DNA of 20,055 bases. It comes from a virus. Within the stretch, counting starts at the first letter, position 1, and every line of letters starts with the position of its first letter. A program made the position numbers and the translations under genes. Of the stretch, positions 12,989-20,055 are shown piece after piece. Below the pieces are notes generated by a model. The model did not search any database, was not told the origin of the DNA, and saw only the letters and a list, made by a program, of their open reading frames with translations. The stretch spans positions 1 through 20,055 of the IMG/VR virus record IMGVR_UViG_3300025645_000610; one strand, 5' to 3'.

Positions 12989-13435
12989 CTATATTGATTT
13001 ATCGTTGTTTACGTTTTTGATTGATTTTTTTAGTACTTTGTCAGAGTATGTGCTACCTTTCATTATAGTATTTCTCTGTGGGCTTGTAGGTATGTCCTCT
13101 TCACCCAGCATTATTCTATACATTCTACTTATAAGTTGTTTGCCCTTGAATGAAACCTTATATACATTACTTTTTGTTGTAGTCCTATTCCTTTTAGCAA
13201 ATAGACTTATCCATCCGTTATCCTTAAGCTTAGACCACCTCCTGGTATCCCAACTGTAAGAATAAGCTCCATCAATAAAATCAAGTCTGTTAAAGAGACC
13301 AGTGCAGTCTAGGTAAATTAATAACTCTAGATCTGCATTAGAAAGTCCATTGTTCTTGCAAGCCCACTGCCTGATAATGCGGTAGTGCTTTAGTAGACTT
13401 AAATTCTTTATATCATTGGCCTCAAGACGCTTCAT
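12989..13435 (-). CDS. Winged-helix DNA-binding protein
   Basis: A 148-aa protein with a winged helix-turn-helix outline. Helix 2 is near residues 31-48 (LSNADLELLIYLDCTGLF), the likely recognition helix at 60-76 (YSWDTRRWSKLKDNGWI), then a basic beta-wing (about 77-95, FAKRNRTTTKSNVYKVSFKG) and a dimer-type helix KGKQLISRMYRIMLGEEDIP. This resembles MarR-type regulators and a family of winged-helix proteins frequent in Bacteroidetes phages. The C-terminal tail is basic. Its ATG overlaps the groES stop (ATGA), so it is translationally coupled to the chaperonin genes. It may regulate late transcription or act as a structural DNA binder; targets are unknown. Stop is TAG. Confidence 0.7.
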   Translation of the reverse strand: MKRLEANDIKNLSLLKHYRIIRQWACKNNGLSNADLELLIYLDCTGLFNRLDFIDGAYSYSWDTRRWSKLKDNGWISLFAKRNRTTTKSNVYKVSFKGKQLISRMYRIMLGEEDIPTSPQRNTIMKGSTYSDKVLKKSIKNVNNDKSI

Positions 13436-13692
13436 AAAACAACAACAACGTCAAATTCTTTTATGACTTTATATATTACCTTATCAATTTCCATATCAAA
13501 CCCTGCGTGTCTGTCGTAGTAAATGGTATCCCCATCTTGTACTCCTTCAACTAATGTTCCTATGGTTTTTACTTTAGCCTCTCTGTATCTTATATCTTCT
13601 CTGTGACTCTCTCCTAAAATTAAACCACCTTTTGTAGATACTTCGTTTTCCTTTACAGGCTCTATCAACATATACTTTCCTACTGCCTTCAT
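13432..13692 (-). CDS. groES: Co-chaperonin GroES
   Basis: An 86-aa Cpn10 that caps the GroEL cavity. Visible elements are the N-terminal strand KYMLIEPVKE, the mobile loop STKGGLILGESHREDIRYRE with the hydrophobic GGLIL tip (residues 22-26, equivalent to the IVL contact of E. coli GroES), and VKTIGTLVEGVQDGDTIYYD, RHAGFDMEID and the C-terminal VIKEFDVVVVL. It is about ten residues shorter than E. coli GroES (97), with a reduced roof region. The start shares a base with the groEL stop (TAATG) and the stop overlaps the winged-helix gene (ATGA). The order groEL then groES is the reverse of the common bacterial groES-groEL order. Confidence 0.92.
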   Translation of the reverse strand: MKAVGKYMLIEPVKENEVSTKGGLILGESHREDIRYREAKVKTIGTLVEGVQDGDTIYYDRHAGFDMEIDKVIYKVIKEFDVVVVL

Positions 13693-15230
13693 TATGCTCT
13701 TAAGTTATTAATTACACAATCAGTTGCAAGTATCGTATTAGCTACAGATGCCGCATTTTTTAATGCACTCTTTGTAACAAGTAGTGGGTCAATAATTCCT
13801 GCCTTAATCATATTGACTATTTCTCCTGTAACTACATTGTACCCACGTCCTTTTTTAGTAGGGTATTCAAACTTAGTGATACCAGCATTGGACATTATAA
13901 CTTCAAATGGAGCTTGAATAGCCTTTAGAAGTATTTCTTCTCCTATGTTAGATGGGGTTACCTTATCACTAGCGTTAAGTAATGCAATTCCACCACCTGG
14001 AAGTATACCTTCTTTAATAGCAGCTTTAGTAGCACAGATAGAATCCTCTACTCTGTCAGCCTTCTCCTTTAACTCAACCTCTGAGTTTGCCCCAACTTTA
14101 ATTACACCAACCTTACCAGCTAGTCTTGACAACCTTCTTTCAAGCAAGTGTTTCTTACCATTAATCTTTGTTGTCTTAAGTTCTTTTTTAATCTGCTTGA
14201 TTAGAGCCTTTGTGTCGTCATTAATCTCCTCTACTTGGATGATAGTATCATCTTGTGTAGTAACGGCCTTTAAACACGTTCCTAGGTGGCTTACGTCAAT
14301 TAAATCCATATCGTCACCTAAGTCCTCATTTATTACAGTTGCTCCAGTCAATGCAGCAAAGTCTTGTAATGTTTGCTTTTTATTAATACCGTAGTCAGGT
14401 GCGTCAATGATATTAGCTTTAATATTACCCTTAGATACGTTCATTGAAATCGCTGTAACTAGTTGTTCATCAGCATCCCCGATAATTAGTAGTTCCTTGT
14501 TGTTCTTAATGACGTACTCAAGAATACTTTGTACCTTTCTTACGTTAGGGATCTTGCTTTCTACAATTAATACAAGTGGGTTATTTAACTCACAAGTACC
14601 TTTCTCTTTGTTATTAATAAAGTGGTGATTCTTTAATCCTTTATCAATTGAAGCTCCATCAACTATTTCTGCCGATGTTTCCTCGTCATTAGATATTTCC
14701 ATACTAACAACACCATTCTCTCCTACATCCTCAAAAGCCTTAGCTATAATTTTACCTAAGCTAGAGTCGTTGTTAGAAGATATTGTGGCAACCTGCTTTA
14801 GCATATCACCACTAACTTCAACTGATTCGCCCTCTAAGTACTTAACAACTTTTTCAACTGCTGAGTTAATACCATCTCTGATTTCTCTTGAGTTGTAGTT
14901 GTCTGTTGCAAATGCCTCTTTTAATATAGAGTGTGCTAATACTGTAGCAGTAGTTGTTCCATCCCCTGCTTCTTTAACAGTTTGTCTAGCTGCTTCCTTT
15001 AAAAGCGTTGCACCCATATTTTCAACAGGGTCTAGAAGTATAACTGAATTTGCTACAGTTACACCATCCTTTGTGATTAGTGGTTTGCCAGATGAGTCCT
15101 CAAGCATTACACACTTACCGCTAGCTCCTAATGTGGAACTAACGGCTCGTGTTAATTTTGATACACCTTCAAACACTTTATTTTTACCTTCGTCTCCGAA
15201 GTTTAAGTTCTTAACGATTTCGTTAGACAT
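13692..15230 (-). CDS. groEL: Phage-encoded chaperonin GroEL
   Basis: A 512-aa group I chaperonin that folds proteins in an ATP-driven ring. Nucleotide-site motifs are intact: TLGASGK at 33-39 (TLGPKG in E. coli), TKDGVTVA with D55, GDGTTTATVLA with D90, RVEDSICATKAA with D396, and LPGGG at 410-414. The apical domain aligns well but its hydrophobic groove differs. E. coli Y199 and Y203 read as L199 and H203 (KGLKNHHF), F204 is kept, L234 reads as Q234, and a one-residue deletion precedes the helix I region, where V263 reads as Ser. The C-terminus stops at VINNLRA without the flexible Gly-Gly-Met tail. Phage GroELs are known from giant Pseudomonas phages and virioplankton metagenomes. The residue comparison is by memory alignment. 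Confidence 0.95.
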   Translation of the reverse strand: MSNEIVKNLNFGDEGKNKVFEGVSKLTRAVSSTLGASGKCVMLEDSSGKPLITKDGVTVANSVILLDPVENMGATLLKEAARQTVKEAGDGTTTATVLAHSILKEAFATDNYNSREIRDGINSAVEKVVKYLEGESVEVSGDMLKQVATISSNNDSSLGKIIAKAFEDVGENGVVSMEISNDEETSAEIVDGASIDKGLKNHHFINNKEKGTCELNNPLVLIVESKIPNVRKVQSILEYVIKNNKELLIIGDADEQLVTAISMNVSKGNIKANIIDAPDYGINKKQTLQDFAALTGATVINEDLGDDMDLIDVSHLGTCLKAVTTQDDTIIQVEEINDDTKALIKQIKKELKTTKINGKKHLLERRLSRLAGKVGVIKVGANSEVELKEKADRVEDSICATKAAIKEGILPGGGIALLNASDKVTPSNIGEEILLKAIQAPFEVIMSNAGITKFEYPTKKGRGYNVVTGEIVNMIKAGIIDPLLVTKSALKNAASVANTILATDCVINNLRA

Positions 15231-15912: not shown

Positions 15913-16110
15913 TTATAGTTCTTCGCTGACTATTGGCATAGCTTCCACCTCTTCCATTTCTGAAAGGTAATTACTATTTTTTACAATATACCAAAATCCA
16001 TCTACTTCATAAGGCTCTGCCCATTGAGTAGTTGTTCCGATATAATTCTGTCCTGCTGTTACAAATGCGTTGTAAGCATCGCACTCTGCTTGTGTCCCTT
16101 TATAATACAT
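15913..16110 (-). CDS. Unknown 65-aa protein after tail/adhesion gene
   Basis: A small protein that begins MYYKGTQAECDAYNAFVTAG. A run NYIGTTTQWAEPYEVDGFWY is rich in aromatics, and the end is acidic (EMEEVEAMPIVSEEL). It starts 2 bases after the 832-aa gene, which suggests coupled translation. Small proteins with a YKGTQAECDAYN-type start accompany tail-fibre genes in other phages as I recall, but I know of no assigned function. Confidence 0.65.
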   Translation of the reverse strand: MYYKGTQAECDAYNAFVTAGQNYIGTTTQWAEPYEVDGFWYIVKNSNYLSEMEEVEAMPIVSEEL

Positions 16111-16112
16111 AG

Positions 16113-18611
16113 TTAATAAATTGTGTAATGGTTATTTATGTTTTGTTGAATTGCTAATCTGTTAGCTGTTTGGTCTGATGGGTAAAATATTAATTCTTGG
16201 ATAGTCCCTTCTAAAAAATGGTCTGCACCGTCATTCCTTGCACCGAAATTAAAAAATTGTGAATTTGCATAAAAATTTGTAGTCGCTAATGTTTGTAAAG
16301 TATCGTTGTTAACACTAATACTAACATCTGAATTAGTATGCTTTGCAAAAAACAAATTTTGAAGTCCGTTTGATGGAGTTGTAGCTTGAGCAAAGACTGC
16401 TTCATCGTTATCTGCGAAGTATTCTTTAAGGTTCCTTAAGCCAAGTCTAATCCTACCTCCTGTTCCAAACGAATCATAAATAAAATTATAATCAAATTCA
16501 TCTACTATTTTAGAAACTGCAAAAGCTGTAACTGTTGGGCCTACTTTTAAATTATTTTTAATATAATCAGTGGTTCCATTAAACTTAACACTTATCTTAC
16601 CATTCTCATTTATAACTGACCCACTACTTACAATTTGAGGTTGTTTTGAAGCTAAATTTTGTAATGCATCACCACCACCACCACCACTTTGGTCATACCA
16701 AGTAGTTACAAATCCATCTCCTGCACCAACGAATGAAAGTAAAGATGAAGTATCTAAAGTTCCATCGTAAAGCAAACCAATATCTTGCTCTTCATTGTCA
16801 CTTGACCTTCTAACTTTAATTGCTGCTCCTGTGTATGCTGAGTTCAACGCTCTTAATGAATAGGCTGCCGCAGCATTAGGATAATCATCTAATAAACCTG
16901 TTTGGCTTCCATCCCAATAGATATTGTAATTTTTATTTATGTTAGTTTCTATACCTGCTCTGTTTAAAGTTTGGTCGGATTGGTAAAGTATAGTATCACC
17001 TATTTTTCCATCAAAAAGAAAAGTACCTTCACCCCTTGCTCCCTCAATCATTGGATCATTAGACGTGTTTATACTGCCATCATTACTTCCTGACTGAGTT
17101 ATTGATGAACCATCTAACCACATTGAATTACCTGCAACTAAGTCTCCTGACGTGTAAATATTTGAAATTAATGAAGTACTTGTTGTTGGTGTAGATACCT
17201 GTCCAGCCCAAACTCTTCCTGATGCTCTTATATATATTTCAGGAGTTACGCCCCAAGAACTCCCTGTTTCAGCTGAAGTAGATATAGCAAACCTACCTGT
17301 TGCAAATCCTACGACATCCGTTTTTTGAACCAAAAATAAACTTCTGGACGATGTTCCAAAATTTAAACCGCTACTTGTTTTTAGATAATGGTTTGCCCCA
17401 TCGTAATCAATCATTGGTTTTTGATTTTCTGTGATTACTTGTCCTGATAATACTATTTTAGGTTGATTAACTGCTGAAATATTAGTTAAATCATTTCCAT
17501 TTCCAGACTGGTCATATCTTATCGTTACAAATCCATCCCCTGCGCCTACAAAAGAAAGTAAAGATTCTGTATTTAAACTACCATCATAAAGAAAATTAAT
17601 ATCTTGCTCTTCGTTGTCGCTTGACCTTCTAACTTTAATTGCTGGGCCTGTGTATGCTGAGTTTAATGCTCGTAACGAATATGCTGCCGCAGCGTTTGGA
17701 TAGTCATCCAGTAAACTTGTTTGAGAACCGTCCCAATAGATATTGTAATTTGAGTTTATGTTAGATTCAATACCTGCTCTGTTAGCTGATTGGTTAGATT
17801 CGTACATCACTATCTCTTGGATGTTCCCATTCATTGGGAAACTTCCTTCTCCTCTTGAACCTATACTTATAGAATTGAAGATACCCCTAACTGGGTTACT
17901 ACTAACGCCCTCTACTGCGTTGTTAAATGTTTCTGAACTTGGACTTATTGCAAAAGAACTAATTATATTTTGACCTGTAATATTTCCGCCTATTACTCCA
18001 TAATTTGCACCTAAAAAACCATAGGTGTTATTCCCTACACGATTATAAGTTAGTGCGTACAAATCTCTTTCATCTGCAATATTATACAAATTTTGGTCAA
18101 CCGTAGAGTCGTTTAAAGCTACTGCAAATATTGATTTTTCTGTTGCACTTCCACCTGAAGTAAATGGGTATTGAGTTAAATTTAAATGCATTAAGAAAGG
18201 AGATGAAAAACTCATAGTAGGCTTTCCATTTAACTCGTTTACCGCTCCATTGCTTACAAGTATAGGTTGTTTTGAAGCTGAAATTTGTGTTGCATCATTA
18301 TTCCCTGCTCCACTTTGGTCATACCACTTGGCAACAGAAACATCATCAGACCCTGCAAAAGAAAGTAAAGATTCTGTATCTAAACTACCATCATAAAGGA
18401 AACCAATATCTTGAACAAAAGTTTCACCTCCAACTGTTTTCATAGCCTCTATAGCTGGACCTGAATAAGAAGTCCTTAGCTTTCTCAAAGAATAAGCAGC
18501 CGCAGCATTAGGGTATAAGTCTAATAATAACCCTGTTGGTACTAACCCTCCTTCGGCTCCTCCCCTAATGCTGTTGTATGGGGATATTACCGATGCTGAT
18601 ATAAAAGGCAT
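16113..18611 (-). CDS. Tail/adhesion protein with three tandem GH54/LamG-like domains
   Basis: An 832-aa protein of three similar units: about residues 29-292, 299-566 and 572-832. Each opens with LYPNAAAAYSLR or DDYPNAAAAYSLR, continues with SAYTGPAIKVRRSSDNEEQD, then LYDGSL and LLSFVGAGDGFVTxxYDQSG, and closes with NINxNYNIYW or NNHYTIY. This AYSLR...GPAIxVRRSSD...YDQSGNGND pattern is the signature of the concanavalin-like catalytic fold of GH54 arabinofuranosidases (ArabFuran-catal), also seen in LamG-like lectin modules. The protein probably binds or trims surface glycans of the host. Whether it is enzymatic cannot be judged from the motifs. Unit 1 resembles the upstream partial protein, and units 2 and 3 resemble each other most. 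The start shares bases with the preceding stop (TAATG). Confidence 0.75.
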   Translation of the reverse strand: MPFISASVISPYNSIRGGAEGGLVPTGLLLDLYPNAAAAYSLRKLRTSYSGPAIEAMKTVGGETFVQDIGFLYDGSLDTESLLSFAGSDDVSVAKWYDQSGAGNNDATQISASKQPILVSNGAVNELNGKPTMSFSSPFLMHLNLTQYPFTSGGSATEKSIFAVALNDSTVDQNLYNIADERDLYALTYNRVGNNTYGFLGANYGVIGGNITGQNIISSFAISPSSETFNNAVEGVSSNPVRGIFNSISIGSRGEGSFPMNGNIQEIVMYESNQSANRAGIESNINSNYNIYWDGSQTSLLDDYPNAAAAYSLRALNSAYTGPAIKVRRSSDNEEQDINFLYDGSLNTESLLSFVGAGDGFVTIRYDQSGNGNDLTNISAVNQPKIVLSGQVITENQKPMIDYDGANHYLKTSSGLNFGTSSRSLFLVQKTDVVGFATGRFAISTSAETGSSWGVTPEIYIRASGRVWAGQVSTPTTSTSLISNIYTSGDLVAGNSMWLDGSSITQSGSNDGSINTSNDPMIEGARGEGTFLFDGKIGDTILYQSDQTLNRAGIETNINKNYNIYWDGSQTGLLDDYPNAAAAYSLRALNSAYTGAAIKVRRSSDNEEQDIGLLYDGTLDTSSLLSFVGAGDGFVTTWYDQSGGGGGDALQNLASKQPQIVSSGSVINENGKISVKFNGTTDYIKNNLKVGPTVTAFAVSKIVDEFDYNFIYDSFGTGGRIRLGLRNLKEYFADNDEAVFAQATTPSNGLQNLFFAKHTNSDVSISVNNDTLQTLATTNFYANSQFFNFGARNDGADHFLEGTIQELIFYPSDQTANRLAIQQNINNHYTIY
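16785..16964. repeat. Direct repeat copy A (GH54/LamG unit 3)
   Basis: A 180-base segment that aligns without gaps to 17604-17783, one repeat unit (819 bases, exactly 273 codons) away. Blocks of identity include cttgaccttctaacttta and cccaatagatattgtaat. It encodes the end of unit 2, the linker NYNIYWDGSQT and the start of unit 3 (DNEEQDIG upward). Confidence 0.85.
17604..17783. repeat. Direct repeat copy B (GH54/LamG unit 2)
   Basis: The partner of 16785-16964, equal in length and collinear. DNA differences are mainly at third codon positions (cattgtca versus cgttgtcg), as expected after an older in-frame duplication under protein-level constraint. A third, more diverged copy corresponds to unit 1, with its AYSLR start near 18495. 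Confidence 0.85.
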
Positions 18612-18913
18612 TACTTATAAGCTATTAATGCGCCACCATCAGCTACTGTGATACTCTGAAACAACTCTCCAGCTGGGGCTTGTATCAAAGCACCCTGCTT
18701 TAATGTAACATCAGACAAAGACATTGATGTCAGGTAGTCATCTGTAGCTACTCCTGTGCTTGCATTTCCACCTAGAAGCACTGTAATTACAGTGTCAGCC
18801 TGTGCAATAAACGCATAAGCATTAACTGATGCATGTGTGCCTTCCGCTAAATACTTAGAGCCGAATGTTCCTATTAGTCTACTTGGGTTTACACCCTTAC
18901 TGTTACTTGCCAT
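18611..18913 (-). CDS. Stand-alone copy of the small virion/adhesion domain
   Basis: A 100-aa protein whose residues about 17-99 match the first 85 residues of the partial protein upstream: FGSKYLxxxxHxxVNxxxFI, then VIxVLxGGxxST, SMSLSxVTLKQGALIxAPxG and FQSxTxxxG. It is beta-rich with no signal peptide or membrane helix. The upstream gene carries the same domain fused directly to a GH54/LamG-like domain, whereas here the domain ends at a stop codon that overlaps the ATG of the 832-aa protein (TAATG). It therefore probably acts as a base, trimerisation or attachment domain for the adhesin. That role is inferred from the fusion. Confidence 0.75.
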   Translation of the reverse strand: MASNSKGVNPSRLIGTFGSKYLAEGTHASVNAYAFIAQADTVITVLLGGNASTGVATDDYLTSMSLSDVTLKQGALIQAPAGELFQSITVADGGALIAYK

Positions 18914-18924
18914 TTTTTTTATTT

Positions 18925-20055
18925 TTATTGATAAATTGAGTATTCTGTGTTAATAAAAGATTGTATATCATTAAATTTAGAAACATCGTTTTTAAAATAT
19001 AATGTTAAGTGAGATATTGTTCCTGTCATAAAAAATGAGGGGGTTCTAGGTATTCTTGCTGCCCCATACGCTCCTATGTAAAATTCATAATCCGAAGCTC
19101 CAAATATATCTGCAGGGTTTGTTACTGCTGAGTTAGCTAAAGTTCCATCAAGATATAACTCGTGATTATTAGAATTTTTATTCAAAATAGAAGAATATAA
19201 TCTATTTGCAGCAACACCTTTTGCTGTGGAAGCGCTTCTATTATTATTTAACTGAGTGGTTAAAATTGAACTAAAATCTGTTCCATACTGTAAAAACCCA
19301 TATCTGTTGGGAGCACCAGCTGCGATAGCCTTAGAAAATACTCCTCCATTTCCTTCAACTTTAGAAACGGCAAAACTCATCATATTTGTATCTGTCATGT
19401 TTAAGACAGAATCACCGCCATTAAGATATTGATTCGCTGAAAATTTTAATGTATTATTACCATCATCATCTAATTCAACAACTCCACTACTTACAATTTG
19501 TGGTTGAGCAGATTCTGCATTATTAAACACATTAAACCCATTTGTGCTTTGGTCGTACCACTTAGCAACAAAAACATCCCCTCCATTTGCAAAAGAAAGT
19601 AAAGAAGTTGTATCTAATTCTCCATTTACAAATCCAATATCTTGAATAGAGGTTGCACCTCCAACTATTTTTATGACTTCAATAGCTGGGCCTGTGTAAT
19701 CAGTTCTTAGTTTTCTTAAAGAGTAAGCTGCAGCAGCATCAGGATATAAGTCTAATAGTAATGGAACTGCACTAGGTTTTGTTCCACCAACAACAGAGTT
19801 GTAAGCCATTATAGTACCACTATCTATTGTCATACTTTGGAATGACTCCCCTTGTGGTGCAACTATCAATGCCCCTTGTTTTAATGTAACCCCACTAAGA
19901 CTCATAGATGCCTCGTAGTCTACATTGTTAGCAGCTGTTGAAGAATCCCCACCCGTAAGTACAGATATAACTGCATCCTCCTGAACAATAAACTCATTAG
20001 AGTTTACATTGGTGTGTGCTGCTACCCCTAAGTACTTAGACCCAAATTGGTTCAA
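18925..20055 (-). CDS. Partial tail/adhesion protein: small domain fused to GH54/LamG-like domain
   Basis: The frame is open to the right edge of the window, so the N-terminus is missing. The edge codon is TTG, which by comparison with the 100-aa paralogue is an internal residue just before QFGSKYL. Visible residues 1-85 are the small beta domain (FGSKYLGVAAHTNVNSNEFI and SMSLSGVTLKQGALIVAPQG). After a linker (YNSVVGGTKPSAVP), residues about 98-376 are one GH54/LamG-like unit (LYPDAAAAYSLRKLRTDYTG, GDVFVAKWYDQST, ending NTEYSIYQ). It is the nearest relative of unit 1 of the 832-aa protein. Probable receptor-binding or glycan-binding virion protein. Confidence 0.75.
   Translation of the reverse strand: MNQFGSKYLGVAAHTNVNSNEFIVQEDAVISVLTGGDSSTAANNVDYEASMSLSGVTLKQGALIVAPQGESFQSMTIDSGTIMAYNSVVGGTKPSAVPLLLDLYPDAAAAYSLRKLRTDYTGPAIEVIKIVGGATSIQDIGFVNGELDTTSLLSFANGGDVFVAKWYDQSTNGFNVFNNAESAQPQIVSSGVVELDDDGNNTLKFSANQYLNGGDSVLNMTDTNMMSFAVSKVEGNGGVFSKAIAAGAPNRYGFLQYGTDFSSILTTQLNNNRSASTAKGVAANRLYSSILNKNSNNHELYLDGTLANSAVTNPADIFGASDYEFYIGAYGAARIPRTPSFFMTGTISHLTLYFKNDVSKFNDIQSFINTEYSIYQ

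Follow-up and report, generated by a model that had tools for sequence, protein, structure and literature searches.

The gene pair near the right edge of this stretch of viral DNA probably encodes a two-part adhesin, in which the 100-residue product is an anchor ('base') and the 832-residue product is a swappable fibre docked to it by a peptide, while the fused gene beside the pair is a derived, covalently joined form whose N-terminal anchor is another one. More tentatively, a widespread unannotated base family, for which no relation to the base of the RcGTA head spike was detected, may have the same peptide-docked, many-to-one architecture, with one phage group using the base domain in one virion both docked and fused (one base, one adhesin) through different anchors.

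The window, meaning the whole stretch of DNA analysed here, is a virus record of 20,055 bases, and its assembly holds no sequence beyond the record. It is a podovirus-like genome segment whose terminase, portal and capsid genes are related to those of Cellulophaga and Flavobacterium phages, and its putative spike genes lie near a GroEL-GroES pair. These phage-encoded chaperonin genes (13432-15230; GroEL 512 aa, GroES 86 aa) are adjacent with a 1-nt overlap, an arrangement kept in related contigs (GroEL 75-99%). In one of these, L009:2314-3851, GroEL is in three pieces and the fibre stops after 85 aa although the locus is intact in other respects; contig errors are the probable cause. At the right edge of the window stand three minus-strand genes, namely the partial fused ORF, the 100-aa ORF and the 832-aa ORF, with the following features.

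19798..20055, minus strand: base-like domain of the fused gene, its N-terminus cut by the window edge; 57% identical to the 100-aa protein; in the fused clade of the tree (98/95)
18925..19797, minus strand: linker YNSVVGGTKPS of the fused gene with its single lectin-like domain, from sequence comparison
18611..18913, minus strand: standalone 100-aa putative base (anchor) protein; BLASTP match to the fused ORF; orthologues at 75-95% in L006-L012 and L029
18609..18613, minus strand: TAATG stop-start overlap of the putative base and fibre genes, unchanged across the window and eight contigs
18579..18611, minus strand: fibre residues 1-11, MPFISASVISP, the proposed docking peptide; conserved, and missing from the fused protein (alignment A5)
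16113..18611, minus strand: 832-aa putative fibre (adhesin) gene, with PHROG 10356 and Pfam PF09206 matches
17736..18557, minus strand: lectin-like repeat 1 of the fibre, about aa 19-292, from BLASTP and relatives
16917..17735, minus strand: lectin-like repeat 2, aa 293-565, from sequence comparison
16116..16916, minus strand: lectin-like repeat 3, aa 566-832, from sequence comparison
15913..16110, minus strand: 65-aa protein encoded behind the fibre gene; in L007, L011 and L029, genes like it lie 3′ of the fused gene

The counterparts of the 65-aa gene lie at L007 5474-5677, L011 4209-4412 and L029 6622-6822, and other small genes come after lectin-like adhesins in the unrelated phages L018 and L021. 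By its position, the 65-aa protein is a possible fibre-assembly factor.

The fused and split versions do adjoin, as an earlier note on this DNA had claimed and alignment bears out. Residues 1-86 of the fused ORF (18925-20055, minus strand), which runs past the window edge, match the 100-aa ORF at 57% identity (BLASTP, E 3e-27), and its C-terminal part gives three alignments to the 832-aa ORF at 31-37%, the best at 37% with E 6e-41. Complete fused proteins in relatives begin MVNPIYQQGEELLLNQF and have about 13 N-terminal residues (MVNPIYQQGEELL...) that are missing from the window copy, which means that its edge TTG does not mark the start. The N-terminal 17 residues of the fused class, MVNPI.QQ.EELLLN (MVNPIYQQ.EELLLN in relatives), are conserved within that class and unlike those of the split class, of which residues 1-17, MASNSKGVNPSRLIGTF (MAS.SKGVNPSRLIGTF), hardly vary between the split copies in the window clade. 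One contig (L029:4659-8303) carries three base-domain copies in a row, two of them fused (657 and 370 aa) and one in a split pair; the 370-aa copy begins MAGKGVIQNRL, nearer to the split type. An AF2 model of the fused protein, made for the L006 homologue from 10 sequences, reached a pLDDT of 41 and was discarded.

Between the base domain and YNS..GG, the fused proteins are without the segment K-stop-MPFISASVISP (alignment A5), and short TAYAA repeats flank both ends of this missing segment. An in-frame deletion between the repeats would yield the fused form, which is the mechanism we infer. The match of YNSVVGG in the fused protein with PYNSIRGG in the 832-aa protein is real but short, and is located where the fused protein lacks MPFISASVISP. 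To call both forms the same two-domain adhesin was too simple, as the split fibre has three repeats here and one, two or other domains elsewhere, plus the extra N-terminal peptide.

Scans of viral contigs found eight (L006-L012 and L029) in which the 100-aa gene occurs together with an identical TAATG, and five of these contigs (L006, L007, L008, L011 and L029) have a fused gene upstream of the split pair. The split bases are 75-95% alike among themselves and about 50% alike to the fused copies; both forms therefore diverged before these phages did. The wider family was reached via a distant member, L035 (46%), leading to 61 and then 80 partly overlapping viral loci. The comparison of fused with split forms in related phages, which the earlier note had called for, found 94 of 101 distinct domain proteins standalone and 7 fused, all within the window's phage group. 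In the tree, all seven fused domains group in a single clade (98/95), and its sister clade is that of the window-group split copies (96/95); the node joining the two clades is weaker (89/66), and the whole group stands at 100/98. The fused clade was also recovered in an earlier tree. L236, which is split-only, falls outside both clades, and every more distant relative is split. In L236 and L237, the same upstream gene (MAINYTYP...) is followed directly by base and fibre, without a fused gene. A single nested fused clade, with split-only L236 outside it and split outgroups, therefore places the split pair first, followed by duplication and one fusion, and this fusion predates the divergence of these phages.

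This order can be set against other accounts of how the two forms arose. Of the earlier note's reading, a local duplication followed by gene fission (or the reverse), the duplication is supported, whereas fission and a recent date are not, given the single fused clade and the position of L236. In its main form, with an ancestral fused gene from which the split pair came by local duplication and fission, that reading would fit the side-by-side forms and their common YNS.xGG stretch; it is improbable given that all sampled outgroup members are split, that the fused form is one nested clade absent from the L236/L237 loci, and that the 11 extra residues of the split fibre sit where outgroup fibres have docking peptides. 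A sequencing or assembly error at 18611 that splits one gene, a doubt which the earlier note had itself raised, has nothing in its favour beyond the 1-nt overlap and hardly deserves credence: TAATG, in which the base stop and the fibre start have one base in common, as first noticed from the sequence, is identical in the window and all eight contigs, which come from at least six metagenome datasets; the junction-flanking codons vary silently on both sides; and the extra N-terminal residues of the split fibre are not found in the fused proteins. A programmed -1 frameshift site, at which the split pair would yield some base-fibre fusion, is very unlikely. With either overlap, -4 or -1, the fibre lies in frame -1 with respect to the base. 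Of 48 distinct members, however, 41, among them the entire window clade, have no X XXY YYZ slippery heptamer within the final 60 nt of the base gene; the seven with a heptamer are one group of near relatives, and both the start codon of the fibre and its N-terminal peptide are conserved.

Across the wider family, the standalone genes with a next ORF called within 12 nt overlap it by 4 nt in 47 of 76 cases and by 1 nt in 21 of 76, and several of the 17 standalone genes without a called next ORF visibly start an adhesin-like peptide just downstream. Overlaps of 1 nt and 4 nt are present at other gene pairs of the window too. The base/fibre overlap is compatible with translational coupling, as judged from gene layout.

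The 100-aa protein gave an AF2 model with a pLDDT of 82.7 and a pTM of 0.70, consisting of an all-beta core, where the pLDDT is over 90, and short helices. Foldseek/VIA comparison of this model with the PDB gave weak cupin/jellyroll-type matches, the best among the matches listed having a Z of 5.5; the Foldseek search of the PDB returned nothing at E <= 0.001, and the RcGTA base was absent among the matches listed. A jellyroll fold common to the window base and the RcGTA base is thus a possibility raised by the model. Matches in BFVD are unnamed phage proteins of about 90 aa. A sequence search of solved structures with alignments A1 and A3 gave nothing credible, and the family of about 90-100 aa was not placed by Pfam, PHROGs or NCBIfam in the searches made here. 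Scanning genome contigs revealed no bacterial or archaeal relative, and tblastn found no match for the base in the phage collection; all known base relatives are therefore uncultured IMG/VR contigs.

The 832-aa protein, taken in the earlier note as one LamG-like part, is instead composed of three tandem copies of a lectin-like domain of about 270 aa behind a short lead, the copies aligning at about residues 29-292, 293-565 and 566-832. It matches PHROG 10356, 'virion structural protein' (E 3.5e-52), and Pfam PF09206, the GH54 arabinofuranosidase family, with 87 bits. The best stretch of the latter match covers profile positions 11-87 of 315, the full catalytic domain is not matched, and the arabinofuranosidase name is therefore no evidence of enzyme activity. 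In repeat 3, a glycine run at 16660-16700 (WYDQSGGGGGDAL) has near-identical codons and is a possible length-variable spot.

While the fibre N-terminus is kept across relatives as MPF[ILV]SAS.[IV][ST]PYN, the remainder of the fibre is exchanged. The C-terminal parts consist of three, two or one lectin-like repeats or of other domains, with other concanavalin-like domains in the L029 fibre and another adhesin type in L008 and L012. L236 and L237 have identical bases and share the first ~21 fibre residues, and differ in sequence thereafter. The contig L008 had hinted that the fused and split adhesins of one phage carry the same lectin type; what was found is shuffling across phages, 264 aa of the window's split fibre having 73% identity with one domain encoded by the fused gene of L029, and no concerted evolution is therefore claimed.

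The closest solved counterpart is the head spike of RcGTA (base Rcc01079, NF048002, PDB 6tb9; head fibre Rcc01080), which like the proposed pair here comprises a small base and a separate receptor-binding fibre. In that spike, a pentamer of jellyroll base proteins, whose N-termini are bound to the capsid, carries one fibre, of which residues 2-10, IALGLGLGL, fill the base pockets as a five-point star (PMC7296036). In the window, too, a fibre gene of its own stands immediately behind the base gene, and fibres of its wider family open with an alternating peptide like IALGLGLGL. These N-termini alternate hydrophobic and small residues, as in MIGIGLSP, MPFVGLGVG and MFVGIGVGVG, and an alternating run of at least 4 occurs in 74% of the fibre N-termini (42 distinct ones) but in 10% of the 539 other ORFs compared (Fisher p 8e-20, inflated by sequence relatedness). 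When counted by distinct first-8 peptides, the proportion is still 68% of 34, and 71% of the genes behind true RcGTA-type bases have such a run. The window's own peptide, FISASVIS (MPFISASVISPYN), failed the strict alternation test with a score of 2, and is tied to the pattern solely through intermediates such as MPFVGLGVG, so that it is at best a degenerate form.

Between the window's base family and the RcGTA base, in contrast, no sequence homology was detectable. The NF048002 HMM, with a cut-off of 28 bits, matched neither the window base nor six relatives, and hhalign of the window base-family alignment A3 against the RcGTA-type base alignment A6 gave a probability of 0.5% over 7 columns. 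The same HMM is passed by elemo (66.9 bits), L019 (45.1), L020 (34.5), L099 (43.5) and L128 (70.5), and A6, built from such NF048002-type bases, matches the solved RcGTA base 6tb9 with E 1e-9. At the equivalent locus, L019, which is of a related lineage, has a true NF048002 base; behind it come a MAVGNGMGIGIP... fibre, whose lectin-like domain is of the kind found here, and next, like the window, GroEL. The fused derivative beside a split pair is a further difference, as none was present in the NF048002 loci looked at. In L108, L113, L117, L121 and L125, relatives of the RcGTA-type base are followed, after a 40-60 nt gap, by a small gene of 82-113 aa, with no adhesin. The split pair is best explained as likely to work as the RcGTA spike does, a likeness of working rather than membership of that spike type.

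Flavobacterium phage elemo (gp41/gp40, NC_055853) resembles the window in its terminase (44.5% identity), in the GroEL nearby and in a base followed at once by a fibre, MFISIANAIG..., whose N-terminus is of a similar FIS... kind. It differs in that its base is of the RcGTA type, the C-terminal sequence of its fibre is another one, and no fused copy was noticed in the annotated region. Phage proteins of PHROG 10356 ('alpha-L-arabinofuranosidase' or virion structural), including those of Synechococcus phage S-CBS4 and Gordonia phages, share the lectin-like domain at 34-47%, whereas no phage of that collection matches the 100-aa base.

Another likeness is offered by Klebsiella phage receptor-binding proteins, which have either an anchor domain or a short conserved anchor peptide (PMC6872550). 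Attachment in these tail systems with depolymerases is by the protein's own domain or by the N-terminal peptide bound to a partner, and no sequence relation to the window's proteins is expected. The base and fibre could by this comparison be a tail-mounted spike or fibre, an adaptor with its receptor-binding protein and no five-to-one star, the fibre N-terminus being like those anchor peptides. We regard this as rather unlikely, though it is the most serious competitor. In PHROGs the elemo base is named a tail fiber protein, the phage also has a fused copy with another anchor, and placement on the head is by analogy with RcGTA; against a tail position, the similarly built family for which a structure has been solved is a spike at capsid vertices (PMC7296036), and many members of the wider family have star-like peptides.

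In the docked base-and-fibre reading that we prefer, a small jellyroll-like base would sit on the virion via the conserved residues at its N-terminus. The lectin-like fibre, which can be exchanged, would be held by its short N-terminal peptide docking into a base oligomer, as in RcGTA. Separate genes would permit unequal copy numbers, with many bases to one fibre (5:1 in RcGTA), and would allow the receptor-binding part to be swapped behind a constant docking peptide, while the overlapping stop-start would couple translation of the two. In the ancestor of the phage group, the pair was duplicated, and one copy lost its stop, start and proposed docking peptide to become one polypeptide. Given its different N-terminal anchor, this fused copy is probably located elsewhere on the virion or assembles into a homo-oligomer. 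The two class-specific N-termini, together with the capsid binding of the RcGTA base N-terminus, would suggest two virion sites or contacts for the split and fused bases.

These proposals provide a testable function for a large family of phage proteins of about 90-100 aa, and the proposed roles would explain why the base genes overlap or abut an ever-changing adhesin. The family is a natural experiment in the evolution of receptor-binding proteins, in which a constant anchor and docking peptide accompany an exchangeable binding part, with one documented switch from putatively docked to covalent attachment.
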